Positions 22,304-41,196 of a DNA stretch of 44,924 bases are shown piece after piece. The notes under the pieces were generated by a model. The model was not told where the DNA came from and searched no databases. It saw nothing but the letters and a program-made list of their open reading frames with translations. A program made the translations under genes and the position numbers. Position 1 is the stretch's first letter. The number at the start of each line of letters is the position of its first letter. Source of the stretch: Microcoleus sp. LEGE 07076 (GTDB taxonomy: Bacteria > Cyanobacteriota > Cyanobacteriia > Cyanobacteriales > Microcoleaceae); assembly GCF_015207455.1 (NCBI RefSeq), contig NZ_JADEWV010000032.1, positions 1-44,924 of the forward strand, read 5' to 3'.

Positions 22304-25300
22304 ATGAAAATCGGATTTCTCGATACCTATACTTGGGATTATAAAGTTGAAACTCCTTACCGCGAACCTTTGGGCGGTACTCAGTCGGCCATTTGTTATT
22401 TAGCTGAGGCGTTGGCAGCCCTGGAAAATGAGGTATTTCTACTCAACAATACTTCGGAACCGGGGATGTCGCGCGGTGTTGATTGCAGGCTGCGGGTGGG
22501 GGACAGCGCTAATCTGGAATTACTGCGATCGCTCGATTTTTTAGTTATAGTCAATATAGTCGGTAAGGCACTTGAAATTAAGCCTCTTTTGGGGGCGCAC
22601 ACTAAATTAATTTTGTGGATTCATAACGAACCTGGCTTTGTTTTTCTCGAAGATTTCAAGGATGAGCTAGAAATTAATGCTTGTGATGCTTTGGTTTTTG
22701 TCAGCGAGTGGCAGCGCCAGCAATTTCACACTCGTTTTGGGATTGACTTCAATCGCAGTTATGTTTTAAGAAATGCGATCGCACCTTGTTTTGCTAACAT
22801 CTTTTCAGATAATAGTTCTATCCTATCTAAAAAATATCGACCGCCCATTCTAGCTTACACTAGCACTCCATTTCGCGGACTGGATATTTTATTAAATGTT
22901 TTTCCCAAAATTCGTCAAGCTGTCCCCGGCACCAGATTAAAAGTATTTTCTAGCATGAAAGTGCACCAAATAGACGACAATGATAACAATCTTTTTTTCG
23001 GTCAACTTTACCGCCAGTGTCAGGAAACAGAAGGCGTTGAGTACATCGGTTCGATAGCGCAACCCGAACTCGTCCGACAACTGCGTTCCGTCGCGGTTTT
23101 AGCTTACCCGAATACCTATTTGGAAACTTCGTCTATTGCGGTGATGGAGGCGATGGCTAGCGGTTGCCGGATTGTGACGAGTGAGTTGGCAGCTTTGCCG
23201 GAAACAACTGCTGGATTTGCCCGTCTAGTTTCCATGTCGGGGGTGAAAAATTTGGCATCGGTAACTAATTGGAACTGTGCCGGCAAACCTGACTGGGAGG
23301 GATATACAAGGCGGTTTTTAGAGGCGGCTGTCTCAGTTTTAAATGAGTGCACTGGTGCGGGCGGCGCAACTGCTGAAAATCGTCTGAGACAGCAGGTAGA
23401 ATATATCAATCGAGGGTGTACTTGGTCTGTGCGTGCCGGAGAGTGGGTAGAATTGTTGAATAGTATTAGTGTAAAATTTGTAAGAGTGGCAGAGCAAATG
23501 AGCGCGGATTCTTTGGTAGATTTTAAGGCATTTAGAACTTATTTCCAAAAGGGAAGTCGGCTGAAAAATGCAGGCAATTTCGATGGCGCAATTGAGAATT
23601 ATCAGCAAGCTTTAGAGTTGAATCCATCGGATGCGGAAGTTCATAAAAAATTGGCGGAAGTTTATGTTTTGCAAGGAGAATTTGCTCGGGCGATCGCCCA
23701 ATGCAATCTCGCTATCAAATTCCAACCGAATTTTGCTGAAGCTTACTTGACGCTGGGAAATGCCCTGCACGCTGAAGACAAGCTGGAAATGGCTGTTCAA
23801 GCTTACTTGCAAGCTTTAGAAATTCAGCCGCAATTTGCCGAAGCTAGCGCGAATCTCGGCAGTATGTATTACAAGTTAGGGCAATTGGAACGGGCGACAA
23901 ACTTTTACCAAAAAGCTCTTGCTATTAATCCTGAATTGTGTTCTGTAAATTTGATGCTGGCGGGTGTTTTGCAGCAACAAGGAAAGTTAGATGCAGCAAT
24001 TGCTTGCTGTCAAAATGTGCTGCAACTGCAACCGGGAAATGCTAGCGCTGTGGAAAAAATATCGAGTTTGACTCAAGAAAAACAGCAAGAAACTGGCAGC
24101 AAATTTATCGAATTAGAAACAGAATCCGGCGCACAGCAACCAGTATCTGTCAACAGAGATGAAGGCTACGGCTTGCAGCCTTCTAGCATCAATTTGCCGC
24201 CTGCGCCTACCTCAGAAAATTTAAATACTCCGTTTACCAGCCCTGCCGAAGTTTCCGAACAAGTTACCTCGCTGAATGTTCCAGATCACAAACAAGTTGC
24301 CAATTTTCAAGAAGTAGAACCTTACAAAAAACTGGCAGAAAACTTTTTAGTTCAAGGTAAAATTAAAGAGGCGATCGCAGCGTGCCACCAAGCCCTAAAA
24401 ATTCGCCCTGATTACATCCACGCTTACGTCACTTTAGGCAATGCTTTGCAAGCGGGTGGCAAAATTGAAGCTGCTATTCGATCGTACTCTCAAGCCTTAG
24501 AATTGCAGCCAAATTTTGCGGAAGTGCGGGCAAATATCGGCAGTATGCACTTTAAAATGGGACGTTTGTCAGAGGCGATCGCACATTACGAACAAGCCAT
24601 TGCCTTGAGTCCCGATTTAGCGGGCGCTCACTGGAATTTAGGAAAAGTATATCACAAACACGGCAACGTCGAAGCAGCGATCGCCTGTTTTCAGAGAACA
24701 TCCGAACTCAACCCGCAGCTTGTCGGTGCCGACTTCCACTTTAACCTAGGAAATCGACTTTTCAGTCAAGGAAAGCGCGACGAAGCCGTTGAAAGCTACG
24801 AAAAAGCGATCGCCATTAAACCGGATTGGGCCGAAGCTTATGCTAACATCGGCAGCGCGCGATCGCAACAAGGCAATCTCGATGCTGCCATCGCTTACTA
24901 TCAGAAAGCTGCAAGTTTCAAGCCGGAATTAGAAGTTCTGCACTTCAACTTAGGCAACTCATTTTTACAGCTATGCAGGTACGAAGAAGCAATTACTAAT
25001 TACCAAAACACTCTAAAAATCAAGCCAGATTGGCCGGAAGTTCACGCTAACCTAGGCAGTTGTTTTTCCATGCTGGGACGGCTGGAAGAAGCTTTAGCCA
25101 GCTATCAGCAAGCTTTGGCACTAAAACCGGATTGGGCAGAGGTTTACTGCCGGATGGGACACATTCAAAAACAAGACAAACCCTTAGAGGCGATCACACA
25201 TTTTGAAAAGGCGATCGAATGCAACCCCAAATACAGCGAAGCCCACCAACAACTCTGCGACTTGCTAAGCCACTCCACCAACCTCGCCGGAGCCCGCAGC

Positions 25301-26755
25301 GTCGCCGACAAATACTGTGAATTCTGCGGCGAAAATGCCCCAGTCATGTCAGCCACAGCCTACGTCTTTTCCTACCTGCAATCAGGTGTCAGCAAACAGG
25401 CAATTCAGAAACTAGAAGAAATCGAAAAACTCTGCTACCAAAAAGTCGAAACCTTTAGCGTGATCGAACTCAAACTGCTTTACGAAATCTTCCTATTTGC
25501 AGTTTCCCACCTGCGAGACAACCGGGAAAAAAATGCCAGTTTCTACCGACTAATTGCCAAAGAATACTACAAAAAAGCAGTTCCGCAGCGGCAGCAAGTC
25601 AACCGAATCAAATCGGCCAATTTCCTCACAAAACAACATCCCTTAAAAATCGGCTTCCTTTCCAAACACTTCCGCCGCCACTCAGTAGGCTGGTGCAGCG
25701 AAGCTTTAATCCGCGAATTAAGCCGCATCACTCCCCACGTTCATCTTTACGTCACCGGTAAACTCAACCGAGATGAAGTTACGCAGCGATTTGAAGAAAT
25801 AGCCGGCAAGTTTTACTGGCCGAAAAAATATCCAAACGGCTTTGCTGACGGCGGCGAAATCCTCGCCGAAGTAGTACAAGACGATTTAGATGTTTTAATA
25901 GATTTAGACTCGATGACAGTGCCGACAAATGTCGAAGTGCTGTATCAATATCCAGCCGGGATTTGCGTTTCTTGGCTGGGATTCGATGCGCCCTACATTT
26001 CGGAAAATCACTACTTTCTCTGCGACGAACACACTCATCCCCCAGGCGTTGAAGAACATTACTTAGAACAGTTAGTTAGATTACCTAGTTGTTCGGTAGC
26101 AATTGGCGCACTGCAAAGCATTCCTACAAATAGAGAGGCGATTAGAAATGCCCTCGGAATTGACTTGAATCAAATGGCTTATCTGTGCGTTGCGCCGGGG
26201 AGAAAAACCAATCCCGAAATGGTGCAAGCTCAAGTTAGAATACTCAAAGAAGTACCAGATAGTTTGTTGATTCGCAAAGGTCAAGGAGACCCGGATATTA
26301 TTCACAGCACTTACCGCGAAGAATGCGATATTCAGGGAGTAGATTTTGCTCGAGTTAAGTTTATCGGACAAACCCGAACCGAGGAAGAACACCGCGCTAT
26401 TTATTATGTAGCCGACGTGCTGTTAGATTCCTATCCTTACAACGGCGGAACGCACAATTTAGAGGCTTTGTGGGCTAATTTGCCAGTAGTAACTCGATCC
26501 GGCGACCAATATCTTTCGCGGATGGGTTATGCTTTTCTCAAAAGTGCAAATCTCGATGTCGGTGCGGCTTGGAGTTGGGAAGAATACACGCAGTGGGGAG
26601 TTAAGTTTGGGCGGGATGCTGGTTTAAGAAATGCGGTGAAAGAACATTTGATAAAATCCAAACAGCCCGAACATCTCGCACCTTTGTGGAATCCTAAAAA
26701 ATTAGCTGAGGAGATGTATGAAGTGTTTCAGAAACTTTTGTCAGTTGACTGTTGA
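22304..26755 (+). CDS. dual glycosyltransferase: GT4 domain, TPR arrays, GT41 (OGT/SPINDLY-like) domain
   Basis: A 1483-residue fusion. Residues about 1-390 form a GT4-type retaining transferase: LGGTQSAICYLAEAL near the N-terminus, AYTSTPFRGLDIL, and the EX7E motif in ETSSIAVMEAMASGCRIV. Two TPR arrays follow (about 410-575 and 670-990), separated by a Pro/Ser/Gln-rich linker. The C-terminal part (about 1113-1478) is GT41: IGFLSKHFRRHSVGW, WLGFDAPY and the sugar-nucleotide region LLDSYPYNGGTHNLEALW with NLPVVTRSG. GT41 enzymes add GlcNAc or hexose to Ser/Thr/Asn of proteins, with TPRs choosing the substrate. No signal or membrane segment is seen, so it is cytosolic. The neighbouring secreted Thr-rich protein is a candidate acceptor (inference). 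The C-terminal SVDC and stop lie in a TTGACTG repeat. Confidence 0.9.
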   Translation: MKIGFLDTYTWDYKVETPYREPLGGTQSAICYLAEALAALENEVFLLNNTSEPGMSRGVDCRLRVGDSANLELLRSLDFLVIVNIVGKALEIKPLLGAHTKLILWIHNEPGFVFLEDFKDELEINACDALVFVSEWQRQQFHTRFGIDFNRSYVLRNAIAPCFANIFSDNSSILSKKYRPPILAYTSTPFRGLDILLNVFPKIRQAVPGTRLKVFSSMKVHQIDDNDNNLFFGQLYRQCQETEGVEYIGSIAQPELVRQLRSVAVLAYPNTYLETSSIAVMEAMASGCRIVTSELAALPETTAGFARLVSMSGVKNLASVTNWNCAGKPDWEGYTRRFLEAAVSVLNECTGAGGATAENRLRQQVEYINRGCTWSVRAGEWVELLNSISVKFVRVAEQMSADSLVDFKAFRTYFQKGSRLKNAGNFDGAIENYQQALELNPSDAEVHKKLAEVYVLQGEFARAIAQCNLAIKFQPNFAEAYLTLGNALHAEDKLEMAVQAYLQALEIQPQFAEASANLGSMYYKLGQLERATNFYQKALAINPELCSVNLMLAGVLQQQGKLDAAIACCQNVLQLQPGNASAVEKISSLTQEKQQETGSKFIELETESGAQQPVSVNRDEGYGLQPSSINLPPAPTSENLNTPFTSPAEVSEQVTSLNVPDHKQVANFQEVEPYKKLAENFLVQGKIKEAIAACHQALKIRPDYIHAYVTLGNALQAGGKIEAAIRSYSQALELQPNFAEVRANIGSMHFKMGRLSEAIAHYEQAIALSPDLAGAHWNLGKVYHKHGNVEAAIACFQRTSELNPQLVGADFHFNLGNRLFSQGKRDEAVESYEKAIAIKPDWAEAYANIGSARSQQGNLDAAIAYYQKAASFKPELEVLHFNLGNSFLQLCRYEEAITNYQNTLKIKPDWPEVHANLGSCFSMLGRLEEALASYQQALALKPDWAEVYCRMGHIQKQDKPLEAITHFEKAIECNPKYSEAHQQLCDLLSHSTNLAGARSVADKYCEFCGENAPVMSATAYVFSYLQSGVSKQAIQKLEEIEKLCYQKVETFSVIELKLLYEIFLFAVSHLRDNREKNASFYRLIAKEYYKKAVPQRQQVNRIKSANFLTKQHPLKIGFLSKHFRRHSVGWCSEALIRELSRITPHVHLYVTGKLNRDEVTQRFEEIAGKFYWPKKYPNGFADGGEILAEVVQDDLDVLIDLDSMTVPTNVEVLYQYPAGICVSWLGFDAPYISENHYFLCDEHTHPPGVEEHYLEQLVRLPSCSVAIGALQSIPTNREAIRNALGIDLNQMAYLCVAPGRKTNPEMVQAQVRILKEVPDSLLIRKGQGDPDIIHSTYREECDIQGVDFARVKFIGQTRTEEEHRAIYYVADVLLDSYPYNGGTHNLEALWANLPVVTRSGDQYLSRMGYAFLKSANLDVGAAWSWEEYTQWGVKFGRDAGLRNAVKEHLIKSKQPEHLAPLWNPKKLAEEMYEVFQKLLSVDC

Positions 26756-26870: not shown

Positions 26871-27309
26871 CTGTGTTTTCAGGGTGCGATCGCTACCGCA
26901 TCGTTGCAAATAGCCAGAATTTTCGACGATGGCGACGCACCCTACTTTTACTCTTTCTCTGTGCCCTCTGCGCCCTCTGCGGTTCAAGAAAAAACAGAGA
27001 TATCAGGTAGAGAAAAGCGGTTTCTGGATATTTTTACGCAACGCCGAGTAAAGTTTTGTAACAATATCCGTGAAAATGCGTAAAAATCCCGCGCCAATCC
27101 TGATATATAAATAGCTGATTCATAGTACCGCGATCGCCCCAACTTTATGCCAGTTAGGGCGATCGCTTTTTATGCTACGAGAATTACGCAAAAGTTAAAG
27201 ATTGGGTAAATTTTTTGACAGCAGGTACAAAAACACTGACATCGATCGCTGAAATTGCTAATTTCTACACATAGTGAAATCAAAAAAGTCATCTACCTTT
27301 AGATATATC
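26871..27309. other. intergenic leader of the RTX gene
   Basis: No gene seen. It holds one copy of the CCCTCTGCGCCCTCTGCGG repeat (about 26962-26984), the hairpin at 27130-27166 and an AT-rich stretch before the RTX start, which is the likely promoter and 5' leader. Confidence 0.5.
27130..27171 (+). terminator. strong hairpin built on HIP1 octamers
   Basis: GCGATCGCCC (27130-27139) pairs with GGGCGATCGC (27157-27166), extended inward by AAC/GTT, and is followed by TTTTTA. It could end transcripts from the glycosyltransferase gene or shape the RTX leader. Confidence 0.65.
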
Positions 27310-30300
27310 ATGCCCAACATTACCCTCTACGACGGCATTACCAACCTGCCAGCCGGAACGCCCCCCGGCATAGGCACGCCGGGGGGTACCGCCCTTGCTT
27401 ACGGGCAAATAGCCCCGGCCGGTACACCACTCCCCGCCCCTTTCCCCCCTGCTTCTCTGGCTGCGGGTGCGTTTACGCCAAACACGACGGGCATCAATAC
27501 TCGTACCATCTATACTCCCAATAGCAATGCTGGCTATGCGGGTTACAATAACTACGATCCAGCATCGCTGACTACTCCTACGCCGGCGATACTGCCGCCT
27601 TTCACCAGCAACACATTAGACCGCACGGCTGGTTATACAATATCTTTTAATGCAGCAATTCCGGCAGAAACTAGCAATCCCAACCGCGCTGGTTTTAGCG
27701 TCACAGCTATTAGCAGCGACGGCTTGAACGGTTTAGAATTGGGTTTTAAAAATGGTAGAATATTCGGTCAATCAGCAAATTTCATTGAGTCGGAAACTGT
27801 TAATTTTAATACTGCTGCAAATAACAATTATGTTCTGAAAGTACAAGGACTCACTTACGAACTTTTTGCGAATAATTCCCCAACTGCAATCCTGACTGGG
27901 CCGCTGCGTCAAATCCAGTTTAACCCGGCTGCAAGTTCTCCTACTTTAAGTTTCAATCCTTATAGATTGCCAAGTTTCCTATTTTTTGGAGATAATACTG
28001 ACCAGGGAAGTGCTACTTTTCGTTTGGGGAAAATAGCTGTTAATGATTTGCCTGTTGCTAGTGCTGATAGTGCGATAACAACTGTCGGCACTCCTAATAT
28101 TAAAATTAAAGTCCTGGGAAATGATACGGGCGGCACGAAGGCACTGAAAGTGCATAGTTTTACTCAACCAACAGGCGGTACTGTTACTGTTGATGACTGG
28201 ATTTATGTAGGAGGAGATTTCACGAGTATTGGGGGGCAGTCACGTAATTATATTGCCCGGTTGTATGGCAGCGACGGCACGGCAGATCCTAGTTTTAATG
28301 CTAATGCGGGTAATCAAATTAGGACGATCGCGATCGATGCTAATGGCAACCCAGTAGTAGGTGGCGGGTTCACCAATATTGGTGGGCAATCGCGTAATTA
28401 TATTGCTCGGTTGAATAGTACCAATGGCACGGCAGATCCTACTTTTAATCCTAATGCGGATGGTGCTGTCTTTGCGATCGCGATCGATGCTAACAACAAT
28501 CCAGTAGTAGGGGGTACTTTCACCAATATCGGCGGGCAGCCGCGGAACTATATTGCTCGGTTGAACAGCAGCACTGGATTGGCAGATACTACTTTCAACC
28601 CAAATGCGAGTAATTCAGTCTGGACGATCGCAATTGATACTAACAATAACCCAGTAGTAGGTGGGTTTTTCACCAGTATCGGCGGTCAGCCACGCAACTA
28701 TATTGCCCGGTTGAGCAGCAGCACTGGATTGGCAGATCCTACTTTTAACCCAAATGCTAGCAATCAAGTCATTGCGATCGCGATCGATGCTAATGGCAAG
28801 CCAGTAATAGGTGGCGTTTTCAACAATATCGGCGGACAACCGGGCAATTATATTGCCCGGTTGAATAGCAGCGATGGCACGGTAGATAATACTTTCAACT
28901 CCTATGCAGATGGTGGAGTCGGTGCGATCGCGCTTGATGCCAACGGCAACCCAGTAGTAGGTGGCTGGTTCACCTCTATCGGCGGTCAGTCACGCAATAG
29001 AACTGCTCGGTTCAACAGCAGCACGGGGTTGGCAGATCCTACTTTTAATCCAAATGTGGGCGGTCAAGTCAGGGCGATCGCGATCGATGCTAACAACAAC
29101 CCAGTAGTAGGTGGCGACTTTACCAATATTGACGGGCAGTCGCGTAATTATATTGGTCGGTTGAATAGCAGCAACGGCACGGCAGATCCTACTTTTAACC
29201 CCAATGCGGATAATACTGTCTGGGCGATCGCGATCGACCCCAAACGCAGCATTGTCTACACCCCCAACCCCACCTTCAACGGCCTCGATACCTTTACTTA
29301 CACAGCAAGCGACGGTTACAGTACCAGCACATCAACTGTCAGCGTCCTCGTCAACAATTCCCCAGTCTTAGACAATTCCGGCACGCCTAATTTAACCGCC
29401 ATTAATGTCAACGAAACCAACAACAGCGGCACATTAATATCAGCGATTATTGGCACTCAAATTACCGACCCCAACGATGCCATTTCCCTGCGTCCGAGAG
29501 GCATCGCCCTCACCAATTTAGATACCACAAACGGCAGTTGGCAATACACTACAGACGGTACAAACTGGAACAATATTACTACCGTTCCTACTCCTGAAAC
29601 TGCACTATTATTAGCAGCAGACGCCACAACTCGCCTCCGCTTTGTTCCCGCTACCAACTACACCGGAACTGTTACTAACGGCATTACTTTCAATGCTTGG
29701 GATAAAATTACTGGCACTAACGGTGGCGCAGCAAATGTCACAACAGATTTAACAACTAACGGCGTTTCTAGTCCTTTTAGTACAGCCAGCGAAACTGCCA
29801 GCATTACAGTTAGTTCACTACCAGCTATTACCAATATCACCTCAGCCCAGACAAATGGCACCTACGGCATCGGTGCAGCAATTCCGATTACCCTCACATT
29901 CAATCAACCCGTTACTGTTACAGGTACGCCGCAGCTTACCTTAGCCACTGGCGGTGTGGGTACTGCGATTAATTATACTAGCGGCAGCGGCAGCAATACT
30001 CTGACATTTAATTACACAGTCACAGCAGGCAATCTCAGTCCAGACTTAGACTATACCTCCGCAACTGCCTTATCTCTCAACGGCGGTACGATTAAGAATG
30101 CGGCTAATGCTGATGCTGTCTTGACTTTGCCGAGTCCGGGTGTTGCTAATTCCTTGGGTCAAAATAAGGCAATAATAATTGATGGCATTGCGCCCACTGT
30201 AAATCCGACTACTATTACGGATATTACGGCGGCGGGGGGAATCAGCCAAGGTTTTACTGTTAGTTTTAACGATGATAGCGCGATCGATGTTACAACTCTC

Positions 30301-32088
30301 GACAGTTCTGACTTTTTGATTAATTGGTCTGGCGGTGGTATTGCTGTTAACTTTGTCAGTGTTGATACTAATACTAATGGCTTGACGCGGACAGCGACTT
30401 ATTCCTTTACTCCGCCTGGGGGAAGTTGGGATATTGCAGATAATAATCGAACTTACAATATTAATCTGCAAGGAAATCAAGTTAAAGATACTGCTGGGAA
30501 TCCTGTTGATGCTAAGAGTTTAGGAAGTTTCAGCGTTAATATTACCGCGCCAACGCCAACACCAACTCCAACGGAAACTCCAACCCCAACTCCAACTCCA
30601 ACCGAAACTCCAACTCCAACTCCAACGGAAACTCCAACTCCAACCGAAACGCCGACGCCAACGGAAACTCCAACTCCAACCGAAACTCCAACTCCAACCG
30701 AAACGCCGACGCCAACTCCAACGGAAACTCCAACTCCAACTCCGACTCCAACCGAAACGCCGACGCCGACTCCGATTCCAACGCCGACTCCAAATCAGAC
30801 TCCAACTCCAACTCCAACTCCAACTCCGACTCCAAATCCGATTCCAACACCGACTCCGATTCCAACTCCAACTCCAACTCCAAATCCGATTCCAACACCG
30901 ACTCCGATTCCAACACCGACTCCGATTCCAACCGAAACTCCGACTCCGACTCCGATTCCAACACCGACTCCGATTCCAACCGAAACTCCGACTCCGACTC
31001 CGATTCCAACCGAAACACCGACTCCGACTCCGATTCCAACACCGACTCCGACTCCAACCGAAACACCGACGCCGACTCCAACTCCAACTCAAACATCAAC
31101 ACCGACTCCCACTCAAACACCAACTCCGACTCCAACGGAAACACCAACTCCGACTCCATCGGTAACGGCTACTCCCACGCCAACTGAAAGCGGTTGCATT
31201 TGCGATACTATTCCGCAGCCAAATTTCAACAAACCAAATCAAGTTGACAATAGTATCAACGGCAATGATAGCAGTGAAATTATGTTTGGGACTGCGGAAA
31301 ATGATGGTTTTTACGGCAGTCCAAATCCGAACATTTTTGATGGAGAATTAGGCGATGATAACCTTTACGGCGGCGAGGAAAATGACATCCTTTACGGCAA
31401 CAGAGGTAATGATTTTATTGATGGTAATAAAGGAGATGATATCCTTTTTGGAGGTAAGAATAATGACATAATTGTGGGTGGTGAAGGTGAAGATGTCATT
31501 TTTGGCGATCGTGGCAACGATTCGATAAATAGCAAGGAAGATAACGACTTGATTTTTGGCAATGAAGGTGCTGATTTTATCGGTGGCGGTAAAGGTAATG
31601 ATTCTGCATTTGGCGGCAAAGGTAACGATATTGTGTTGGGTAACAAAGGTGATGATATTCTCTACGGCAATTCTGGCAGCGATACTCTCTGCGGAGGGGC
31701 GGGAAATGATTTTTTAAGCGGGAATCAAGGTAGCGATTTGCTGGATGGCTGCGAGGGAAATGATTCTATCTTTGGGGGGGCTGGTAGTGACACTCTCACT
31801 GGCGGTTTTGGCGATGACATTTTAATTGGAGGTGTGGAAAATGATATTCTAATTGGAGGTCTAGGAAATGATACGTTTGTGTTAGAAGGTAACGGCGGAT
31901 TTGATGCGATTTATGATTTTACTAAAGGGTTGGATGTGCTGCAATATAAAGGCGCAAGTATTGGGGGATTGGCAATAAGTCAAATTACTGAAGGTGCTTT
32001 AATTAGTAAAATAAGCGGGGAAGGTTTGGTGTTGTTGGTAGGGGTGCCAGCTAGTACGATCGCACTTAGCGATATCACTTTACTTTAG
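27310..32088 (+). CDS. large secreted RTX protein with nested beta-propeller and Thr/Pro/Glu stalk
   Basis: A 1592-residue protein with no Sec signal. The C-terminal RTX repeats suggest type I secretion. Order: N-terminal beta domain (1-240); a cadherin-like domain (about 240-296 and 647-690) interrupted by seven 50-residue delta-60-like repeats (297-646, each with PVVGGxFTNIGGQ, NYIARL and ADPTFNP); Ig/Bap-like domains (about 690-1078); a stalk of [10 protein letters not shown] units (about 1081-1290); then GGxGxD-type calcium-binding nonapeptides (about 1315-1530, e.g. [11 protein letters not shown]) and a C-terminal domain [18 protein letters not shown] chose ATG 27310 (MPNITLYDG) over GTG 27274 because cyanobacterial RTX proteins often start this way. 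It is probably an adhesin or sheath protein. Confidence 0.88.
28198..29247 (+). repeat. seven 150-bp tandem repeats coding a beta-propeller
   Basis: Exactly 1050 bp, or 7 x 150 bp, encode seven 50-residue repeats of the delta-60 type. Copies differ by scattered substitutions but keep their length. Most copies carry GCGATCGCGATCGATGC (one as GCGATCGCGCTTGATGC), which supports duplication from a common unit. Confidence 0.9.
30548..31180 (+). repeat. PT/PTET low-complexity stalk
   Basis: About 630 bp of ACNCCA-type hexamers encode Pro-Thr pairs with Glu, Ile-Pro or Asn-Pro breaks ([19 protein letters not shown]). The reverse strand stays open only because of the repeat. Length is likely to vary between strains. 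Confidence 0.9.
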
Positions 32089-32500: not shown

Positions 32501-35500
32501 CTACTGACTCACGTGGACTCGATCGCGCCCGCCAGACTTAGCCTGATAAAGCGCCTTATCAGCAGCTTCAATCAACATCTTCGGCGAATTTTGATTTTCA
32601 GAAATCGTCGCCACCCCCATGCTGAGAGTGACGCAATCGGTGACAACAGACTTGAGGTGGGGAATTGCCAAAGTTTTGACGCGCTGGCGGATTCCCTCAG
32701 CAATAGCTTGTGCAGCCTTGATGTCGGTATTTGGCAAAATCACCCCAAATTCCTCGCCACCGTACCTAGCAGCTAAATAAACGTGTTCTGCGGGTACATT
32801 CTTGCAAGCATCCCCGATCGCCCGCGCCACTTGTTGCAAACAAGCATCCCCAGCCTGGTGGCCGTAATTGTCGTTGTAAAGTTTAAAGCAGTCAATGTCG
32901 CACATAATCAAAGACAGCGGTTCAGAAATGCTAGAGACTTCCCATTCCCGGTTGATCACCTCGTCAAATCGGCGGCGGTTAGCTAACTGAGTCAGACTGT
33001 CCAAATTCGCCAACCCGTCCAACCGCTGGTTAGCAGCAGCTAGCTGCTGGTAAAGTAAAGATTGTTCGATCCCGATCGCCACTTGAGTAGCCAACTGACT
33101 CAGCAAATCCATGTCAAACTGCTGCCACTCGCGGGGTGCCGAACAGTGGTGGGCAATCAGCAAACCCCACAACTGCGCTACTTGACAAGAAGGATTGCCA
33201 TCGCGGTGTTCGATTCCCTGCTGGACGATGGGTACGACTAAATTCGCTTTCACCTGACACTCGGCCAAAAAATTGACATGACACTCAGCAAAATTAGAAG
33301 CGTGAATGTCCTCGACCGATCGAATTCTGCCCTTCAAATACTGTCCGACATAAGTATTAGCAAAACAGCAGTCCTCTACAGCCATACCCATCAGTGGCAT
33401 CCATCCTTCCCCTACCGACTCCACCACCACATCTCCGTTCCAATCAGGTCGGAAGCGGAAAATAATCACGCGATCGGTTGCCAAAAATTCCCGCACTTCC
33501 GCTACTGTAGTATTGAGAATATCTTCGATATCCAGAGAAGAACGGATGCGCGATTGAATCTGCGCGATCAGGCGTTCCCGTTCTACCTGCTGCCGCAGTG
33601 CGACTTGAGCTTGCTTGCTTTGAGTAATGTCCCTACCTTCGGGCAGCAGCAATACTATTTTGCCAGTTTCATCCGCGACGGGTTTGAGAGAAAAATCAAC
33701 AGTTGCCGTTCGATTTGCACCTTGAACTTCCACTTCATAGCGAACAAATTCACCTTTTGCCGATCGAGAAATCGCCTCCTGCAACTGTTCCCGAACTTCC
33801 CGAGAATCTCCCCACCAAGGCAAAAGCCAAAACGGGCGGTTTGCCACATCCCGCAGCTTAAGTCCCGCAAAATCTAAAGAAGTTTGGTTAGCTTCCAGCA
33901 GAGTGCCGTCCGGCTTCAACAAACTCACAAATTGGAACGAAGAATCAAAAATTGCCCGAAAGCGCCGTTGAGAATCTCCCAACATTGCCGTCACCTTTTC
34001 GCGAGAAGTAATATCGCGGAAACGCCACACCCTGCCAATAATATTTTGTCCGACTCGAATCGGCTGCGTGTAGCGTTCAAAAGTCCGACCGTCTTTAAAA
34101 TCGAGAATATCGCAGCCTTCGGACTCCGCATTGCTATAAATTTCTTGAATTCTCTGCAAAAAAGCCCTCGGGTCTTTAACTTGCTTGGTGAGAAATGTCA
34201 GCCGCAGCGTTCTATCCATCGAGTTTCTTACTTCTTCATGAATTCCCCACATTTGAACTAACTTTTCATTAAAACTAATCAGTTCTCCAGATGTAGTAAC
34301 AGCGAGAATGCCATCTGCCGTGGCTTCCAGAGTAGCGTGCAGCAAAGAGCGAGACCGCTCTAATTCTGCTGCTATTAATGTGCGTTCAGTGAGGTTTCGC
34401 ACTGCTTTCACCTGCACTAAACGACCATCGCACATTACGAATTTACTGCGAACGTCAGCAGGAAAAGCCGTTCCGTCCCGCCTGAGAAAAATCGTTTCGC
34501 AGACTGTATTGCTGCTGGCAGAAATCATTTGTGGCGCTACTTTATAAGAGTTGGGCGACAGCAGTTCCAGCAAGCTCATTCCCGCCATTTCCGCAGGTTT
34601 GTAACCGAACATTTCGGCAAAATCGCTGCTGACGCTCAAAATTGTGTCGCGGTCAGCAATAGCAACTGCTTCAAAATAATCTTCGCATTCGAGCAATTCC
34701 GCTGCTGCATTGTTGCCATTTTTAGCAGCATAGCTGTTATCAATTAGCTGTTGCAGTTGCATATTTGCCGAGTACAAAGCTGCCATTGCTTGCCGATACA
34801 TAGCAGTGCGTTTTTCGACTTTTTCTGTGAGGCGATCGCGATAAATTCGCAATTTTTTTTCTACTTTAATTAAATCTGTAATATCTACTGCAAACACGAT
34901 CGTGCCACCGACTTGACCTGTTTCATCGCGGTAAGGTATTCTATCTATTCGCACCCAGCATTTTTTACCGGATACAGTGGGCAGAAGTTCGACTTTTCCC
35001 AATTTGGGAACACCGGAATTGATTACTTCCAAATCTTCTAAATAATATTGTTCTGCTTCGTCTGGATAAATTTCATAAAAAGATTTTCCTTCCAATTGAT
35101 TTGCAGGCAAACCTCTCGATGCAGCCGCAGCTTTGTTAAGTCGCAGCAGGCGACTTTCCCTATCTTTGTACCAAATCATCGCCGGCACGGAATCAAAAAT
35201 AATTTGCTGTTCTTGGTGCTGTCGGCGCATTTCTGCTTCTGCTTGTTTTCTTTTAATTATTTCTTGTTGTAGTTTTGTATTAGCTTTTTTGAGTTCGGCA
35301 GTGCGTATCTCTACTCTTTTTTCTAGTTGATCGTAGTATTTGCTCAGCAAGTTTTGCTGCTGTTCGCGCCGCATTGCTTCTAATTTAGAGTTTTCGCTAG
35401 CTGACAAACTTGAAGATACAAAATCTGCTAATATTTTGATGAATTCCTGTTCTTCTTCTGTCCACTCACCGCCGGAACTTGCACGTTCGGTGCTGACTAT

Positions 35501-36448
35501 TCCGGCCATTTGACCCGCTAGCAAAATCGGTACGTTTAACAAAGAAGTCTTGCCCCGATCTGCAAAATAAAGACTGGCAAGTTCTTGCGTTCTCGGGTCA
35601 TTTTCTGCTGCCACCGTTGCGATGGGAATTGCGGATTTTAACGCTTGAAAATATGCCGGACAGTCGGCTGCTGTGACGATTATTTGTACCGAATGGAGTT
35701 TAGTATTGTCTTCGTAGAAATCGATACAGTGAAGCTGCGTTTTGTCTTCGCCGTACAGCCAAATACTGGCTCGATCGCAGTTAACAATACTGACAGCGGT
35801 TTCTGTTACTTCGCGGATGAATTGTTCTATATTGTTGCGTTGTTTAAGTTGACTTTTGGCTAATTTTGCGATCGCCAAAGTTGGATGGCGCCAATTTCTG
35901 ATCGGGTTTGGGGGTGCTGGTGCGGGCGAAGCTGTCTTAACTTCTTCGCAAACTAAAAGTACAGTCGGCCGCTGGAAATTGGAAATTGAGCCATCGCCAT
36001 TACTTTCCTCTATTTTCCAGTCTAACCCCGGCATGGCGCGCGCGGTTGCTTTTACCCAGATCGTCCTGCCATCTTTGCAAGTCAAGCGACCTTCCCAACA
36101 GGCAATTTGTGCAGCCAGCTTGCCATTTTTTGCCTGTGTCAAGCAAGCAAATTCAGCCTGCATTTTCCCTTGATCTTGACAGCAAAATATGTTAAAAATT
36201 GAATGATAGATTAATTCCTGCGACCTGTAGGCGAGGCGAGACTCACCGAATTGATTGATCGAAAAAACTCTTCCCAAAGCGTCTAGAACAAAGTAAATAC
36301 CCGGAAAATTGTCGTAGAGAGTACGATACCAATCCTGTTCGACTTGTTGGCCGGACGAAACTTTTACTGTCGCGAGTTCGCCACAGGTGCCTATCAAGTG
36401 AGAATTGTTGGTTTCTGGGTTGCTTGAATGACTTTTTTTAGCAAACAC
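32501..36448 (-). CDS. DXCF-type cyanobacteriochrome diguanylate cyclase (multi-PAS/GAF-GGDEF)
   Basis: A 1315-residue soluble sensor that should make c-di-GMP in response to light. Order: PAS (about 38-140), GAF (205-355), coiled coil, four PAS domains (about 415-945), CBCR GAF (about 955-1120) and GGDEF (1135-1315). The last GAF holds VEDCCFANTY, where Asp1026-Cys-Cys1028-Phe is a DXCF motif, and ECHVNFLAECQVKANLVVPI with canonical Cys1056-His1057. The 28-residue spacing between the two cysteines is the same as in TePixJ. Dual-cysteine DXCF proteins bind a bilin and usually switch between blue and green/teal states. GGDEF is intact (RYGGEEF, 1230-1234; MCDIDCFKLYNDNYGH). The usual RxxD inhibitory site before it is absent (EHVY). 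The stop lies in a TAGTCAT-type repeat. The gene reads alone. Confidence 0.88.
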   Translation of the reverse strand: MFAKKSHSSNPETNNSHLIGTCGELATVKVSSGQQVEQDWYRTLYDNFPGIYFVLDALGRVFSINQFGESRLAYRSQELIYHSIFNIFCCQDQGKMQAEFACLTQAKNGKLAAQIACWEGRLTCKDGRTIWVKATARAMPGLDWKIEESNGDGSISNFQRPTVLLVCEEVKTASPAPAPPNPIRNWRHPTLAIAKLAKSQLKQRNNIEQFIREVTETAVSIVNCDRASIWLYGEDKTQLHCIDFYEDNTKLHSVQIIVTAADCPAYFQALKSAIPIATVAAENDPRTQELASLYFADRGKTSLLNVPILLAGQMAGIVSTERASSGGEWTEEEQEFIKILADFVSSSLSASENSKLEAMRREQQQNLLSKYYDQLEKRVEIRTAELKKANTKLQQEIIKRKQAEAEMRRQHQEQQIIFDSVPAMIWYKDRESRLLRLNKAAAASRGLPANQLEGKSFYEIYPDEAEQYYLEDLEVINSGVPKLGKVELLPTVSGKKCWVRIDRIPYRDETGQVGGTIVFAVDITDLIKVEKKLRIYRDRLTEKVEKRTAMYRQAMAALYSANMQLQQLIDNSYAAKNGNNAAAELLECEDYFEAVAIADRDTILSVSSDFAEMFGYKPAEMAGMSLLELLSPNSYKVAPQMISASSNTVCETIFLRRDGTAFPADVRSKFVMCDGRLVQVKAVRNLTERTLIAAELERSRSLLHATLEATADGILAVTTSGELISFNEKLVQMWGIHEEVRNSMDRTLRLTFLTKQVKDPRAFLQRIQEIYSNAESEGCDILDFKDGRTFERYTQPIRVGQNIIGRVWRFRDITSREKVTAMLGDSQRRFRAIFDSSFQFVSLLKPDGTLLEANQTSLDFAGLKLRDVANRPFWLLPWWGDSREVREQLQEAISRSAKGEFVRYEVEVQGANRTATVDFSLKPVADETGKIVLLLPEGRDITQSKQAQVALRQQVERERLIAQIQSRIRSSLDIEDILNTTVAEVREFLATDRVIIFRFRPDWNGDVVVESVGEGWMPLMGMAVEDCCFANTYVGQYLKGRIRSVEDIHASNFAECHVNFLAECQVKANLVVPIVQQGIEHRDGNPSCQVAQLWGLLIAHHCSAPREWQQFDMDLLSQLATQVAIGIEQSLLYQQLAAANQRLDGLANLDSLTQLANRRRFDEVINREWEVSSISEPLSLIMCDIDCFKLYNDNYGHQAGDACLQQVARAIGDACKNVPAEHVYLAARYGGEEFGVILPNTDIKAAQAIAEGIRQRVKTLAIPHLKSVVTDCVTLSMGVATISENQNSPKMLIEAADKALYQAKSGGRDRVHVSQ

Positions 36449-36750
36449 TTTTTAGCTTAACTCGACTGTAATTAATTTTACTTTCTGGAATTTAACTTTC
36501 TTGTGAAACTAAATTAAACCTGTTGTTTGAAAAAAGTTACAAATTGTAACAATATTACAACTTGTCCAGCGCGCTGGTTGTCGCTTCCCAATCAAAATCC
36601 TCTGTTTGTTTGTTTGTTGTGGGTAGATTGCCTGTCGGCGATATTTGGCGTTAGCGGCGGTACTAGCAGGTTAAGCTGCAATTGCCGCCTCTGTAGTTGT
36701 AGCATCCGACAATCGAAAAAACCGACAATCAAGGGTTTTAGTTATATATG
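36449..36750. other. upstream region of the photoreceptor gene
   Basis: This AT-rich stretch likely holds the promoter of the minus-strand sensor gene. It contains the palindrome at 36536-36550. No gene is seen. Confidence 0.4.
36536..36550. promoter_or_regulatory. 15-bp perfect palindrome, possible operator
   Basis: GTTACAA-A-TTGTAAC lies about 90 bp upstream of the photoreceptor start, followed by a further half site ATTACAA. It is the size and symmetry of a dimeric regulator site. No regulator is known for it. Confidence 0.4.
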
Positions 36751-37455
36751 ATAACACTCAAATATCTGATATTGGGGGTGACTTACTTGGGATGCGGTTT
36801 GGGATATTTGCGGGGGTTGCGGTTCAACCGGGCGGCGGTGGCAATTGTCGGGTCAGCTTTGGCGGCGACTTTGGGATACTCGACCTGAAAACTGCTTGAT
36901 ATCGTTTCCGGTTGCATCGCAATGATTTAACCTTTCTAGGGCGCAGAGAACACAGAGAAAGACAAGAGAGAGATGAATACATAACAACGATGAAGCGCGG
37001 ATTTGGTCTGACTCGATTTTATAATTGGGATGCTACCGGATTTGATATGAAAGACGATCGACCCAAGTACGATCGTTTTTTGCTGGGAATGACGATCGTT
37101 AATTCGGCTTTGGGAGCATCGGGTTTTTTCAACTCGCTTTTCAACTAATTTGACTGATAAGCCGCTGAATTTGTTGGGACTAACAGTAATACTTTCTAAC
37201 TTAATTTCCAACGCCCCGGCTGTGCTACTTATCCAATCGCTGATTCCGAAAACAGATACAGAAGCTTGGCTATTTTTCACGGCGGTTTCTACTCTGGCGG
37301 AAAATTTAATATTGTTGAGTTCTGCCGCTAATTTGATGGTAACTGAAGTTACAGGAAAAGCAGGCGATACTTTGACTTTTAAACAACATTTGCAGTTCGG
37401 GCTGCCGCTAACTTTCCTTACTTTGGATCTAATTCGCACAGAGGCACTACCCTAA
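36751..37455 (+). pseudogene. remnant of an ArsB/NhaD-SLC13-like anion transporter, split by a MITE-like element
   Basis: The first piece (about 36751-36888) starts ITLKYLILGVTYLGCGLGYL and RFNRAAVAIVGSALAATLG, the typical N-terminus of this membrane transporter family. It stops after about 45 residues. The MITE-like element B follows (36897-37050). The second piece resumes as ALGASGFFNSLF and then, in another frame, LLGLTVILSNLISNAPAVLL, STLAENLILLSSAANLMV and QFGLPLTFLTL, the C-terminal helices. The middle of the protein, roughly 250 residues, is missing, and there is a frameshift near 37148. The gene cannot make a working transporter. Confidence 0.8.
36897..37050. mobile_element. MITE-like element, copy B (154 bp)
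   Basis: The left end TGATATCGTTTCCGGTTGCA is inverted at the right end as GCTACCGGATTTGATATGA. Read on the minus strand it follows copy A closely: TATTCAT, CTCTGTGTTCTCTG and AAGGTTAAATCATTGCGATG, plus about 40 bp extra. It sits inside the transporter remnant. Confidence 0.8.
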
Positions 37456-37485
37456 GTTTTAGCACTTAACCAGCCAACAATTTCG

Positions 37486-40400
37486 TCAACTCTTCCCTTC
37501 CCCTGATTCCTTCGCGTTTTTCGCGCCTTCGCGGTTCGTTACAACAAAACTTGCAATTTTCCAAGACTCTATCTTAAAACCTCCCCCTTCGGGCAACTTT
37601 TCCGACAAATTGACAGGTCTTTCGAGCAAATCAACTGGCTCTACAATCTGCAATTCCAAATCGCTCTCAAATTCTAGCACAGCTTCTTTCCCATGAGATT
37701 CGCAACACCGTAAAATCCACATATTAGCATCATCTTCCGACTGTTTAAACGCCATCAACACTAAATTTTCGGCAGACAAATCTAAGAACTTGCCAACTGC
37801 GGGCAGAGTCTGGGGGCAATTTTCATCTAACTCGGGGAACACCTTTACCAGCAGCGGCAAATTCAACTCGCAGCCGCGCCGAACTGTGGCGGCATTTTGC
37901 CAATTTCCAGCGTGGGGATAGACTGCACAAGTAAATTCCGAAACTCCTACATCTGCTTGTTCGTCCGGCCAAGTCGAACTCCGGAGCAAAGTCAGCCGGA
38001 TTTGATTTTGTTGAATGTCGCAACCGTATTTACAATCGTTGAGCAAACTCACTCCAAAACCGTGATTGCTGATATCAGTCCAGCGGAAAATCGGCACTTC
38101 CCACTTCGCTTTTTCGGTGGCTGTTTGCGGCTTAGTTGTGCGATCGATCGCCCCGCCGGGAATTTCGCAAGTTACAAAATCTGCTTCTACATTTAGCCCA
38201 AAAGCTGCTTTGACCAAAACGTGAGTTTCTTGCCAATCTGCAACCGTCTTAATTTTCAGCAGCGCCGAACCTTTTTCTAGCGTGTAATCTTGGCAAAACT
38301 CCGATTTACCAATTTGCAGAACTACGCGCAAACTCTGCCGTATTTCTCCCCGCTCTACCCAATAAATCTGTTTGAGTGTCGGGGCCGGCAATTGATGTTT
38401 TTGATAATTGGGATCGATGTTCCAAGCATCCCAATATTGACTGCTGTCTTGAAAGGCTTGCAGTTGATTGCCTCCGGCTGCATTCAAGACTTCTCTGTGA
38501 TTTACTTTATCCCAAATGCTGGATAAATTACCAGTTTGTTGGTCTATTTTTGCCAGAATAAGTTCATTTTCTAAGACGATTTGTGGGGCGGGAAAATGCG
38601 TTTCTTGACAAAGTGCGTTTTTTTGTGCTATACCGTATGTAAGTTTTGATAAATCTGTCTTGTTTGCGGTGGCTGGACTCGCGCCCGCGTTACTCGGAGT
38701 TGGAGAGTCTTCGCGACACAGCCAAAACACCTGGTAGCCGATCGCCGGAACATCCTCTGCACAAAATAACATGGTAAATTGCGATGGTGGTCGATCGCCA
38801 CAAACAATCTGCGAAACCAGCCTCTGTCCAGACAAGTCGTAAATTTGCCAAGCTAAACCAGCAGCATCGGGAAGCGGTAGATTGACAACCTCAGAGCGCG
38901 ACCAATTGAGAGTATTGAAAATCAGAATTGGTTGAGCGTCCGGCTGCGGAGGATTCGGCAGAGAAATTTGAGCGGAGATAGCATCTAGAGATTGTAGTAG
39001 AATTTGGCGACAAGCGCGATCGGCCTGGGCAAAGGCTAGATTAGCATCCGCGTAGACTTGGGCGATCGCCGAACCGGGCAAAATATCGTGAAACTGGTTA
39101 AACAACACTTGTTTCCAAGCCGATTCTAACTCAGATTTCGGATAAACCGCGCCAGTGCAAATCGTTGCCAGCGAAGAAAGCAACTCCGCTTGATAGAGCA
39201 ACTCTTCACAGCGGCGGTTTTGGCGTTTTTGGTCAGCGCGAGTCGTGTAACAGCCCCGGTGAAATTCCAGGTAAAGTTCATCTTTCCAAATCGGGAGAGT
39301 GCGGAGATTTTTGAGTTGTGAGATAGAAGGATTTGCGTCCGAAATTCTCGACAAATTGGCAAATTCTAGCTGCCGCAAATTCTCCTGATTATCCGATTCT
39401 GGAACATCATTTTCGGGGAAAGCTGCCGCAACTTCCGGCAAAAACCGACTCTCAATCAAAGACAAATAATCAACCGCCTTCGCCAACTCCAAACTTGGGA
39501 AAAAAGGCGACAATTTCCAGCGTTTCGCCACATTTAGCATATCACGAGTCGGGCCACCGCCGTGGTCGCCAACTCCCGGCAACCAAAGAGCATCTAGCAA
39601 ACCAGTCTTAACTTGCCAATCAAAAGCATAACTTGCCATTTTTACAGATTCTATGCCTTCACCAATTGGAGCAGACATCATGCTAAATATTTTAGTACCG
39701 TCCAACCCTTCCCACCAAAACACACCGTAAGGAAACTGGGTAGAATCATTCCAGCGCAACTTCTGCGTCACAAAATAATCAACTCCACCGCCGCGCAAAA
39801 TCTGAGGTAATTGCCACCCAAAACCGAAAGTATCCGGTAGCCAAGCCACCCGCATCAACTCCCCAAAATTTTCTAGTGCGTAGCGCTGTCCGTAAAAAAC
39901 TTGTCGCACCATTGACTCAGCAGAAATCAAGTTTAAATCCGGTTCAACCCACATCCCGCCGACAACTTCCCAACAACCAGCAGCCACCTGTTTTTTGATT
40001 TCTGCAAACAAGTCCGGGCGATGTTCTTGAGTCCAAGCATAAAGCGCTGGAGTAGAATGACAGAAAATCAAATCTGGAAATTCCGATTGCAATTTCAACA
40101 CCGACTCAAAAGTTCGCTCTGCCACTTCCCAAGTTTCGGGTACTGGCCACAGCCAAGCTAAGTCTAAATGAGCGTGACCGACCAAATAGATTTTACTTGT
40201 ATATATAGATGTAATAGCAGCGCTTTCTCCTATATATATAGATGTAATTTTGTCAGAGTCTCCCACCCGAGAAAGCCGACTTCTTGTTTTTCCCTCTGCG
40301 CCCTCTGCGCCCTCTGCGGTTCGCTCATCTAAATCTCCAGAAAAAGATGTAATAGCCTCGCTTTCTCCTATATATATAGATGTAATTTTCTCAGAGTCTC

Positions 40401-41196
40401 CCGCCGGGGTGTCCTCTGCGGTTCCCTCATCTAAACCCGCAGAAAAAGCTTGCAGATATCCCAGTAAATTGTGGCGCAAAACAGACAGAGAGCGATCGAA
40501 CTTTTCGCGATCGCCCACCGCCGACCAATCAATCAAATTAACCGCCAAATCAATCTCAGATTTCAGCTTTTCCCCCTTGACAAACCGGGGATGATTTGCT
40601 ATATTTTGGATGGGGAGGTATTGGCAATTTATATTTTCTAAATTTAGAGTTAGGGAATTTTGCAAAATCTCTAATTCGTCCGCCACAAAACCCGGATCGA
40701 AACAAGCAGAGTCCGCAGCTTCGTACAAACAAATCGATCGCACTAAAGCACCGCTATCGTGTGCCGGACTTACCAACCGCAAAACAACTAAAAATTCATC
40801 TCCCGGATTTGCCGACGCACTCAACAAAACTCGATCGGCACAATCAAATAAATCGCCTTTTCCGACGGACTCACCGCCCACAAAAATCTCAGCATCTTCG
40901 GCCCACCAAGTCAAGCCCAGCAGCAACCGTAAACCAACCACAGGATAGCCGTACAAATTGTCAGGAACTACAAAACGCTGTTCCAAACAAACAACTTGCT
41001 TTCTGCAGGGCCAAGCAATATGTCCTTTCCCGTTAAGTTCGGCAATCGGCCTGTTAGAAATACCTACCGCACCCGCAGCAGCCAAGTCACCATCGCAGTA
41101 CCTCCAGCCAGACTGAACCTCGACTTGACTGAGGCGACGCAACTTCTCTACAACTTCAGAAATATTATTGCTGGCAGGTGACACAGAAGGGTTCAT
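37486..41196 (-). CDS. alpha-mannosidase (GH38)
   Basis: A 1236-residue glycoside hydrolase that removes terminal alpha-mannose from glycans. An N-terminal beta domain (1-250) precedes the GH38 catalytic domain, which opens with GHAHLDLAWLWP (Zn-binding His and Asp). WVEPDLNL and the nucleophile region WLPDTFGFGWQLPQIL follow, then a helical bundle (QVLFNQFHDILPGSAI) and C-terminal beta domains. No signal peptide is seen, so it should be cytosolic. Residues about 253-335 are a repeat-derived insertion just before the catalytic domain, with duplicated KITSIYIGES and DERTAEGAEGAEGK. The C-terminal tail NREGAKNAKE is also translated dispersed repeat. A close homologue without inserts would show what is native. 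Confidence 0.9.
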   Translation of the reverse strand: MNPSVSPASNNISEVVEKLRRLSQVEVQSGWRYCDGDLAAAGAVGISNRPIAELNGKGHIAWPCRKQVVCLEQRFVVPDNLYGYPVVGLRLLLGLTWWAEDAEIFVGGESVGKGDLFDCADRVLLSASANPGDEFLVVLRLVSPAHDSGALVRSICLYEAADSACFDPGFVADELEILQNSLTLNLENINCQYLPIQNIANHPRFVKGEKLKSEIDLAVNLIDWSAVGDREKFDRSLSVLRHNLLGYLQAFSAGLDEGTAEDTPAGDSEKITSIYIGESEAITSFSGDLDERTAEGAEGAEGKTRSRLSRVGDSDKITSIYIGESAAITSIYTSKIYLVGHAHLDLAWLWPVPETWEVAERTFESVLKLQSEFPDLIFCHSTPALYAWTQEHRPDLFAEIKKQVAAGCWEVVGGMWVEPDLNLISAESMVRQVFYGQRYALENFGELMRVAWLPDTFGFGWQLPQILRGGGVDYFVTQKLRWNDSTQFPYGVFWWEGLDGTKIFSMMSAPIGEGIESVKMASYAFDWQVKTGLLDALWLPGVGDHGGGPTRDMLNVAKRWKLSPFFPSLELAKAVDYLSLIESRFLPEVAAAFPENDVPESDNQENLRQLEFANLSRISDANPSISQLKNLRTLPIWKDELYLEFHRGCYTTRADQKRQNRRCEELLYQAELLSSLATICTGAVYPKSELESAWKQVLFNQFHDILPGSAIAQVYADANLAFAQADRACRQILLQSLDAISAQISLPNPPQPDAQPILIFNTLNWSRSEVVNLPLPDAAGLAWQIYDLSGQRLVSQIVCGDRPPSQFTMLFCAEDVPAIGYQVFWLCREDSPTPSNAGASPATANKTDLSKLTYGIAQKNALCQETHFPAPQIVLENELILAKIDQQTGNLSSIWDKVNHREVLNAAGGNQLQAFQDSSQYWDAWNIDPNYQKHQLPAPTLKQIYWVERGEIRQSLRVVLQIGKSEFCQDYTLEKGSALLKIKTVADWQETHVLVKAAFGLNVEADFVTCEIPGGAIDRTTKPQTATEKAKWEVPIFRWTDISNHGFGVSLLNDCKYGCDIQQNQIRLTLLRSSTWPDEQADVGVSEFTCAVYPHAGNWQNAATVRRGCELNLPLLVKVFPELDENCPQTLPAVGKFLDLSAENLVLMAFKQSEDDANMWILRCCESHGKEAVLEFESDLELQIVEPVDLLERPVNLSEKLPEGGGFKIESWKIASFVVTNREGAKNAKESGEGKS
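40200..40440. repeat. in-frame duplicated repeats within the GH38 gene
   Basis: Units with CTTTCTCCTATATATATAGA and TGTAATTTT.TCAGAGTCTCCC occur at about 40222-40264 and 40368-40402. Between them lies a (CCCTCTGCG)n stretch (40291-40320) of the dispersed CGCAGAGGG family. Reading frame is kept throughout. Confidence 0.8.

Follow-up and report, generated by a model that had tools for sequence, protein, structure and literature searches.

We predict that a gene in the 44,924-nt contig NZ_JADEWV010000032.1 of Microcoleus sp. LEGE 07076 (GCF_015207455.1; referred to here at its full length as the window) encodes a light-regulated diguanylate cyclase in which the last GAF domain is a bilin-binding DXCF cyanobacteriochrome, and we give this a probability of roughly 0.8. 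The gene (32501..36448, minus strand, as are all features within it) has a GTG start and encodes 1315 residues with the layout PAS–GAF–PAS repeats–GAF (cyanobacteriochrome type)–GGDEF. The sequence motifs, the nearest neighbour in our tree, the predicted fold, and the presence of both heme oxygenase and intact PcyA in the same genome together make a bilin-binding, blue-light-type diguanylate cyclase the best reading. This photoreceptor–cyclase reading is strong and also ordinary for cyanobacteria, as it describes a known kind of protein (cf. SesA/Tlr0924). What is new is limited to one specific feature, a Cys at the X of the DXCF motif which is fixed in our sample of the genus.

Conserved cysteines of the last GAF domain

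The last GAF domain (residues 955–1139, 33032..33586; Pfam GAF 973–1127) was assigned to the DXCF cyanobacteriochrome type by its Pfam match, bilin-binding relatives in the PDB and nearest neighbour in the tree. In the window DNA the DXCF motif with X = Cys (33362..33373) reads D1026 GAC, C1027 TGC, C1028 TGT and F1029 TTT, and the canonical bilin-attachment Cys–His pair (33278..33283) reads C1056 TGT and H1057 CAT. The DCCF and CH motifs proposed in an earlier sequence-only reading of this DNA are therefore confirmed at the codon level, and both are retained in 28/28 orthologs (this set includes the window protein). The 28-residue spacing between C1028 and C1056, which the same reading had likened to that of TePixJ, is indeed also found between TePixJ C494 and C522 (numbering as given in PMC6955287). 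The domain contains six cysteines (1027, 1028, 1056, 1064, 1088 and 1102), and all six are invariant in the 28 orthologs. The label 'dual-cysteine' given earlier is correct in that C1028 and C1056 are present, but it is too small for a domain with six invariant cysteines, four of which (1027, 1028, 1056 and 1064) occupy columns that line the pigment according to the alignment. By the same column assignments, thiols occupy the C3-2, C10 and C3-1 attachment columns simultaneously.

The orthologs were identified by matches with E < 1e-100 over all or most of the protein in 27/28 other genomes of the genus (these were split or partial in G003, G009 and G025). Of the 21 loci found in a second collection, 19 were at least 81% identical over the GAF domain and carried Microcoleus, Tychonema, Lyngbya sp. 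CCAP 1446/10 or Oscillatoriales/cyanobacterial bin titles, and the other two were 40% and 24% identical. C1027 is encoded by TGC in 21 of the 28 orthologs and by TGT in the other seven, which indicates silent changes at this codon without loss of the Cys.

Our census of the X column is based on 290 rows aligned to a profile, with 242 distinct rows made up of the 28 orthologs, 139 non-orthologs with xxCF plus the canonical Cys, and 75 which lack one of these or aligned poorly (note that the 139 are the better-scoring GAFs of the searched genomes among the matches listed, which is a non-random sample, and that 115 further stretches were added). Cys was found at X in 0/139 of the non-orthologous DXCF-like GAFs, or 0/138 after identical cores were merged (L086 and L248 are one place with different ends), and the claim that a Cys at this position is unusual was borne out, C1027 itself being real. 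The X residue in the 139 was P (64), T (31), N (9), S (8), R (6), H (5), E (4), K (3), D (3), I (2), Q (2), Y (1) or A (1), and the first letter of the motif was D (130), E (8) or N (1). Among the 75 other rows, Cys occurred at X once, in the DCYF motif of locus L194, where the canonical Cys is followed by Gln. Eight GAFs in the window's own genome have xxCF and the canonical Cys, including that of the window. Within this set of aligned sequences, C1027 is kept by the genus and is rare or absent among the relatives examined. No report of a DCCF or adjacent-cysteine cyanobacteriochrome was found in the open-licence literature (figures excluded), an absence that carries little weight.

The column of C1064 showed a similar distribution, with Cys in 28/28 orthologs and in 1/139 of the others (the sister protein L083), the remainder being mostly Phe (80) or Leu (39). 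The Val in the beta-2 column is shared with 86/139, and a Phe in the F1060 column is ordinary (31/139).

A phylogenetic tree of 91 rows (seven orthologs out of the 28, the 62 closest members of the 139, 18 rows from the 75 others, and four PDB sequences), constructed with the motif columns excluded and with bootstraps that had not fully settled, placed the seven orthologs in one clade (support 100/99). The sister to this clade was L083 (support 100/98), a DPCF GAF–GGDEF protein from a neighbouring genus (genome G177). L194 (G123:C18:94538-95047), from another family of the order, was placed far from the ortholog clade, and because of this distance its Cys at X was probably gained separately. 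By eye, the tree is most simply read as Cys having arisen at X twice, once on the stem of the genus and once in L194, with the Pro of L083 as the probable ancestral state.

The GGDEF domain (residues 1147–1310, 32519..33010; identified by Pfam and alignment) lies directly after the photosensory GAF, with GGEEF intact at 1230–1234 and DIDCFK at 1184, and the Pfam domains, alignment and sister protein in the tree uphold the earlier claim that a DXCF-type GAF is fused directly to GGDEF. The two are joined by a helical linker (residues 1128–1146, 33011..33067; defined by the C-terminal helix of the structure model and by its length in orthologs) which has the same length in 27/28 orthologs, the remaining one (L051) stopping before the linker. 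Such constancy would fit a cyclase dimer driven by the GAF helix. There is no RxxD inhibition site in this domain, as the 26/28 orthologs with GGEEF, and also L083, have E where the R would be and Y where the D would be (with the site taken at its usual place with respect to GGEEF).

The predicted pigment pocket and bilin supply

The best matches to the last GAF amongst PDB sequences were 6oap (which we take to be the dual-sensor histidine kinase PPHK), 8k9o (RcaE GAF), the miRFP nano proteins and TePixJ (3vv4). We produced five structure models using 19 aligned sequences, the best of which had a mean predicted local distance difference test score (pLDDT) of 76.6 and a predicted template modelling score (pTM) of 0.73. 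When this model was used in a Foldseek search, 6oap, 6ob8 and 6oaq were returned at the top, then the miRFP nano proteins, TePixJ and AnPixJ, and among the matches listed the first 42 were all bilin GAFs or fluorescent proteins derived from them. The fold of the last GAF, as modelled, is of the bilin-binding kind; as the model is without pigment, we derived no thiol distances from it. The TePixJ pocket residues D492, C494, C522, H523 and N535 are kept as D1026, C1028, C1056, H1057 and N1069, respectively.

Proteins with known pigment contacts allow C1027 and C1064 to be placed in this pocket. In miRFP670nano the residue in the X column, Arg57, is described as being near bilin C3-2, and in miRFP718nano, where Arg57 was changed to Cys and the canonical Cys to Ser with further evolution, Cys57 attaches biliverdin through C3-2 of its ring A (PMC10357936). 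Since the Cys in this same column binds ring A in miRFP718nano, C1027 probably faces the pigment close to ring A. A contribution to the isomerisation of phycocyanobilin (PCB) to phycoviolobilin (PVB) is described for V1018 of MCC3606390g2 (PMC11284453), which we also placed in the X column (one past the motif Asp) by counting the CXDXXL motif from C1015. C1064 (33257..33259) is a candidate for the helix-4 (D-ring, 'position X') column, as in UG1 the DXCF Asp D739 and the helix-4 D-ring residue Y777 are given as 38 residues apart (PMC5240096) and D1026 + 38 is C1064, for which the equivalent is L530 in TePixJ and Phe in the AnPixJg2 row (engineered variant 5zoh). This placement is likely but not certain, because the corresponding residues of UG2 (D583 and L622; PMC5240096) are one residue off the same count. 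The sequence-only reading was silent on the pigment column of C1064, as it was on the nearness of X to ring A and on the fixation of Cys at X in the genus sample.

Neither of the trapping Phe residues is present in the last GAF (beta-2 Val, helix-4 Cys), and we infer from this that the photoproduct is more likely to be green, as in TePixJ, than teal. The blue/green type proposed earlier is thus a fair guess, as TePixJ also has no trapping Phe, but DXCF proteins are described as yielding teal, yellow and orange photoproducts as well (PMC5240096, PMC5578081).

Two other cyanobacteriochrome types were considered and rejected. An insert-Cys type using C1088 (33185..33187; 28/28 orthologs) does not fit, as this residue, which sits in an additional loop separating the strand that ends VPIVQ from the one that ends LWGLLIAH, lies after the canonical Cys, whereas the UG1 insert-Cys C713 sits before D739 (PMC5240096). 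An extended red/green (XRG) type (WXDXXL, typically with no second Cys) does not fit either, as V1024 occupies the Trp column and the second-Cys column contains Cys.

The window's own genome encodes a heme oxygenase and an intact PcyA (phycocyanobilin:ferredoxin oxidoreductase), and PCB can therefore be made. The genome also has two phycoerythrobilin-synthesis-like genes which we take to be pebA and pebB (L002, G000:C29, and L003, G000:C288). In the pebA-like gene the open frame covers just 157 residues, and the remainder of the match contains two stops. The pebB-like gene lies in two pieces on two contigs, with a frame near each break that by eye looks like a TnpB transposase, so the phycoerythrobilin pathway of this strain or assembly seems to be disrupted. 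A second GAF–GGDEF protein is encoded in the same genome by L014 (G000:C248:5179-5712; 737-residue frame) and has NFCF and no canonical Cys; bilin is perhaps attached here through the second Cys only, as is described for the DXCIP proteins (PMC5578081).

Several observations count against a bilin-binding, light-regulated cyclase. Only the best of the five structure models was good, with the pLDDT of the other four ranging from 65.3 to 42.0, and the best solved matches, 6oap and the NpR3784-derived proteins, are without the second Cys. TePixJ Q526 is replaced by F1060. The tree leaves its deep forks open, with non-DXCF rows interspersed among the DXCF proteins and the placement of TePixJ unsure. 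One of the 28 other genomes of the genus (G006) had no ortholog at our cut-off, and in L051 (G009:C170) a TAG just past the GAF, which may be real or an assembly error, leaves a sensor without GGDEF. Finally, 100/185 (54%) of the GAF columns are invariant across the 28 orthologs, and the conservation of C1027 could be part of this overall conservation.

It is also conceivable, if very improbable, that the last GAF has lost bilin binding and relays a different signal. Bilin binding is itself only predicted, and several GAFs in the same genome have no canonical Cys; on the other hand, the motif residues are kept in 28/28 orthologs and the PCB pathway is present.

Possible roles of the cysteine at X

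For the bilin-binding cyclase that we favour, the following mechanism is proposed. PCB would be linked at C1056 and converted to PVB, and in the dark state C1028 would be bonded to bilin C10 to give a blue-absorbing form. Light would isomerise the D ring and the bond with C1028 would be broken, giving a green- to orange-absorbing form, and this change would be relayed to the GGDEF dimer by the C-terminal helix and the linker. C1027, facing ring A beside these bonds, would probably tune them, most likely by helping PCB-to-PVB isomerisation or by either competing with or protecting C1028.

We raise, tentatively and at less than even odds, the possibility that C1027, as a third thiol facing the pigment, is chemically active in the photocycle, through a bond to ring A, bilin isomerisation, or a reversible disulfide with C1028. 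If so, a single GAF would read light plus redox (or pick its bilin) before setting the level of cyclic di-guanosine monophosphate (c-di-GMP), and C1027 would be the natural counterpart of the cysteine engineered into miRFP718nano. The genus forms mats and soil crusts.

The redox form of this proposal is an unlikely one. It holds that under oxidising conditions a disulfide between C1027 and C1028 (or between C1027 and another pocket Cys) removes the C10 nucleophile, which would change a blue sensor into a longer-wavelength or light-blind one, with light and redox read jointly. Neighbouring cysteines in 28/28 orthologs and in 0/139 of the other DXCF GAFs are consistent with such a gate, but disulfides between neighbouring residues are rare, no redox partner gene turned up (none was searched for), and a pigment-free model cannot show a disulfide of this sort.

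Rather more doubtful is an alternative linkage, in which C1027 bonds ring A at C3-2 and the bilin is biliverdin or is doubly attached, as in miRFP718nano or miRFP704nano. The C1027 column is that of miRFP718nano Cys57, described as bonded to biliverdin C3-2 (PMC10357936), and this speaks for such a linkage. Against it, the canonical C1056 is kept here whereas miRFP718nano has Ser in this position. Furthermore, PCB lacks a vinyl group at C3, and given an intact PcyA, PCB should be available.

The proposal that C1027 is active has to be weighed against the simpler view that it is neutral or involved in just packing, and that the protein is a DXCF blue/green diguanylate cyclase like any other, which we regard as plausible without being probable. 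The 54% of GAF columns that are invariant in the orthologs, and the wide range of residues at X in other GAFs (P, T, N, S, R, H, E and others), fit this view. However, Cys is absent from this variable position in 139 other GAFs, yet is unchanged in 28 orthologs despite silent changes in its codon. If C1027 is active, the orthologs would offer a genus-wide natural system in which to study the influence of adjacent thiols on bilin attachment, isomerisation and the response to redox, and a scaffold from which to build small biliproteins that can attach ring A at a second point. If it is inactive, the protein would still add to the probable blue-light switches of c-di-GMP.

Gene context and comparison with known systems

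The N-terminal part of the protein has a first GAF domain (residues 206–346, 35411..35833; Pfam GAF_2), in which no DXCF/CH motif was seen when the sequence was inspected by eye, and PAS domains (34385..35197) with PAS_4 (418–525) and PAS_9 (594–688) as the best stretches and more PAS matches on both sides. Upstream of the cyclase is a GH38 alpha-mannosidase gene (37486-41196, minus strand) which is present in 16/20 related loci, some of them cut, and downstream is a tetratricopeptide repeat (TPR)/glycosyltransferase gene (22304-26755, plus strand) which is present in 13/20; neither has an obvious functional link to the cyclase. Between the cyclase and the TPR gene lies a gene for a large DUF5122/bacterial Ig/RTX-repeat protein with a long PTPTPT-rich linker (27274-32088, plus strand; identified by Pfam and from the open reading frame list), which amongst the 20 related loci is found only in L061. 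The TPR gene adjoins the cyclase in 13 of these loci, L071, L072 and L075 have neither gene, and the sequences of L059, L064 and L065 stop short. When 36300-37600 was scanned for promoters and terminators, one site of each was found (shuffle means of 2.1 and 1.8, respectively), there were no Rfam matches in the window at gathering scores, and a plasmid search returned eight records, all with less than 60% identity.

The nearest neighbour in the tree, L083, is a sister GAF–GGDEF protein of the same family which also carries C1064, and it differs in having Pro at X (DPCF), a shorter N-terminal part (693 residues in all) and no C1088. L194 resembles the window protein in having a natural Cys at X (DCYF) together with a canonical Cys, and differs in having no second DXCF Cys. 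We note that the DCYF motif of L194 is close to that of the engineered miRFP718nano.

Of the solved structures, PPHK (6oap) is the top PDB match to the last GAF by both sequence and fold, but has the motif DQYF, no second Cys and a histidine kinase output. TePixJ (PDB 3vv4/4glq/6pru) is 41–42% identical to the last GAF in fold alignments and 45% in the sequence alignment, and shares DXCF plus CH, the 28-residue spacing, the D/H/N pocket residues, and the lack of Phe in both the beta-2 (Val) and helix-4 columns. It differs in that X is Pro and the helix-4 column is Leu (L530) instead of Cys, and it is annotated as a chemotaxis protein for which GGDEF is not named. miRFP718nano (NpR3784-derived, PDB 7lsd) shares the Cys in the C1027 column, Ala in the A1054 column and Phe in the F1060 column, and differs in being a laboratory product with Tyr in the third motif position and the canonical Cys changed to Ser, and in binding biliverdin.

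As a whole, the window protein can be compared by published descriptions with SesA/Tlr0924 from Thermosynechococcus, with which it shares a DXCF GAF and a GGDEF output (PMC4223177, PMC5871770). SesA is described as a blue-light-activated diguanylate cyclase that is inhibited by c-di-GMP via an RXXD site (PMC5871770), which is not a defining feature of the SesA type, whereas the window protein is without this site, and it should therefore differ from SesA in c-di-GMP inhibition.

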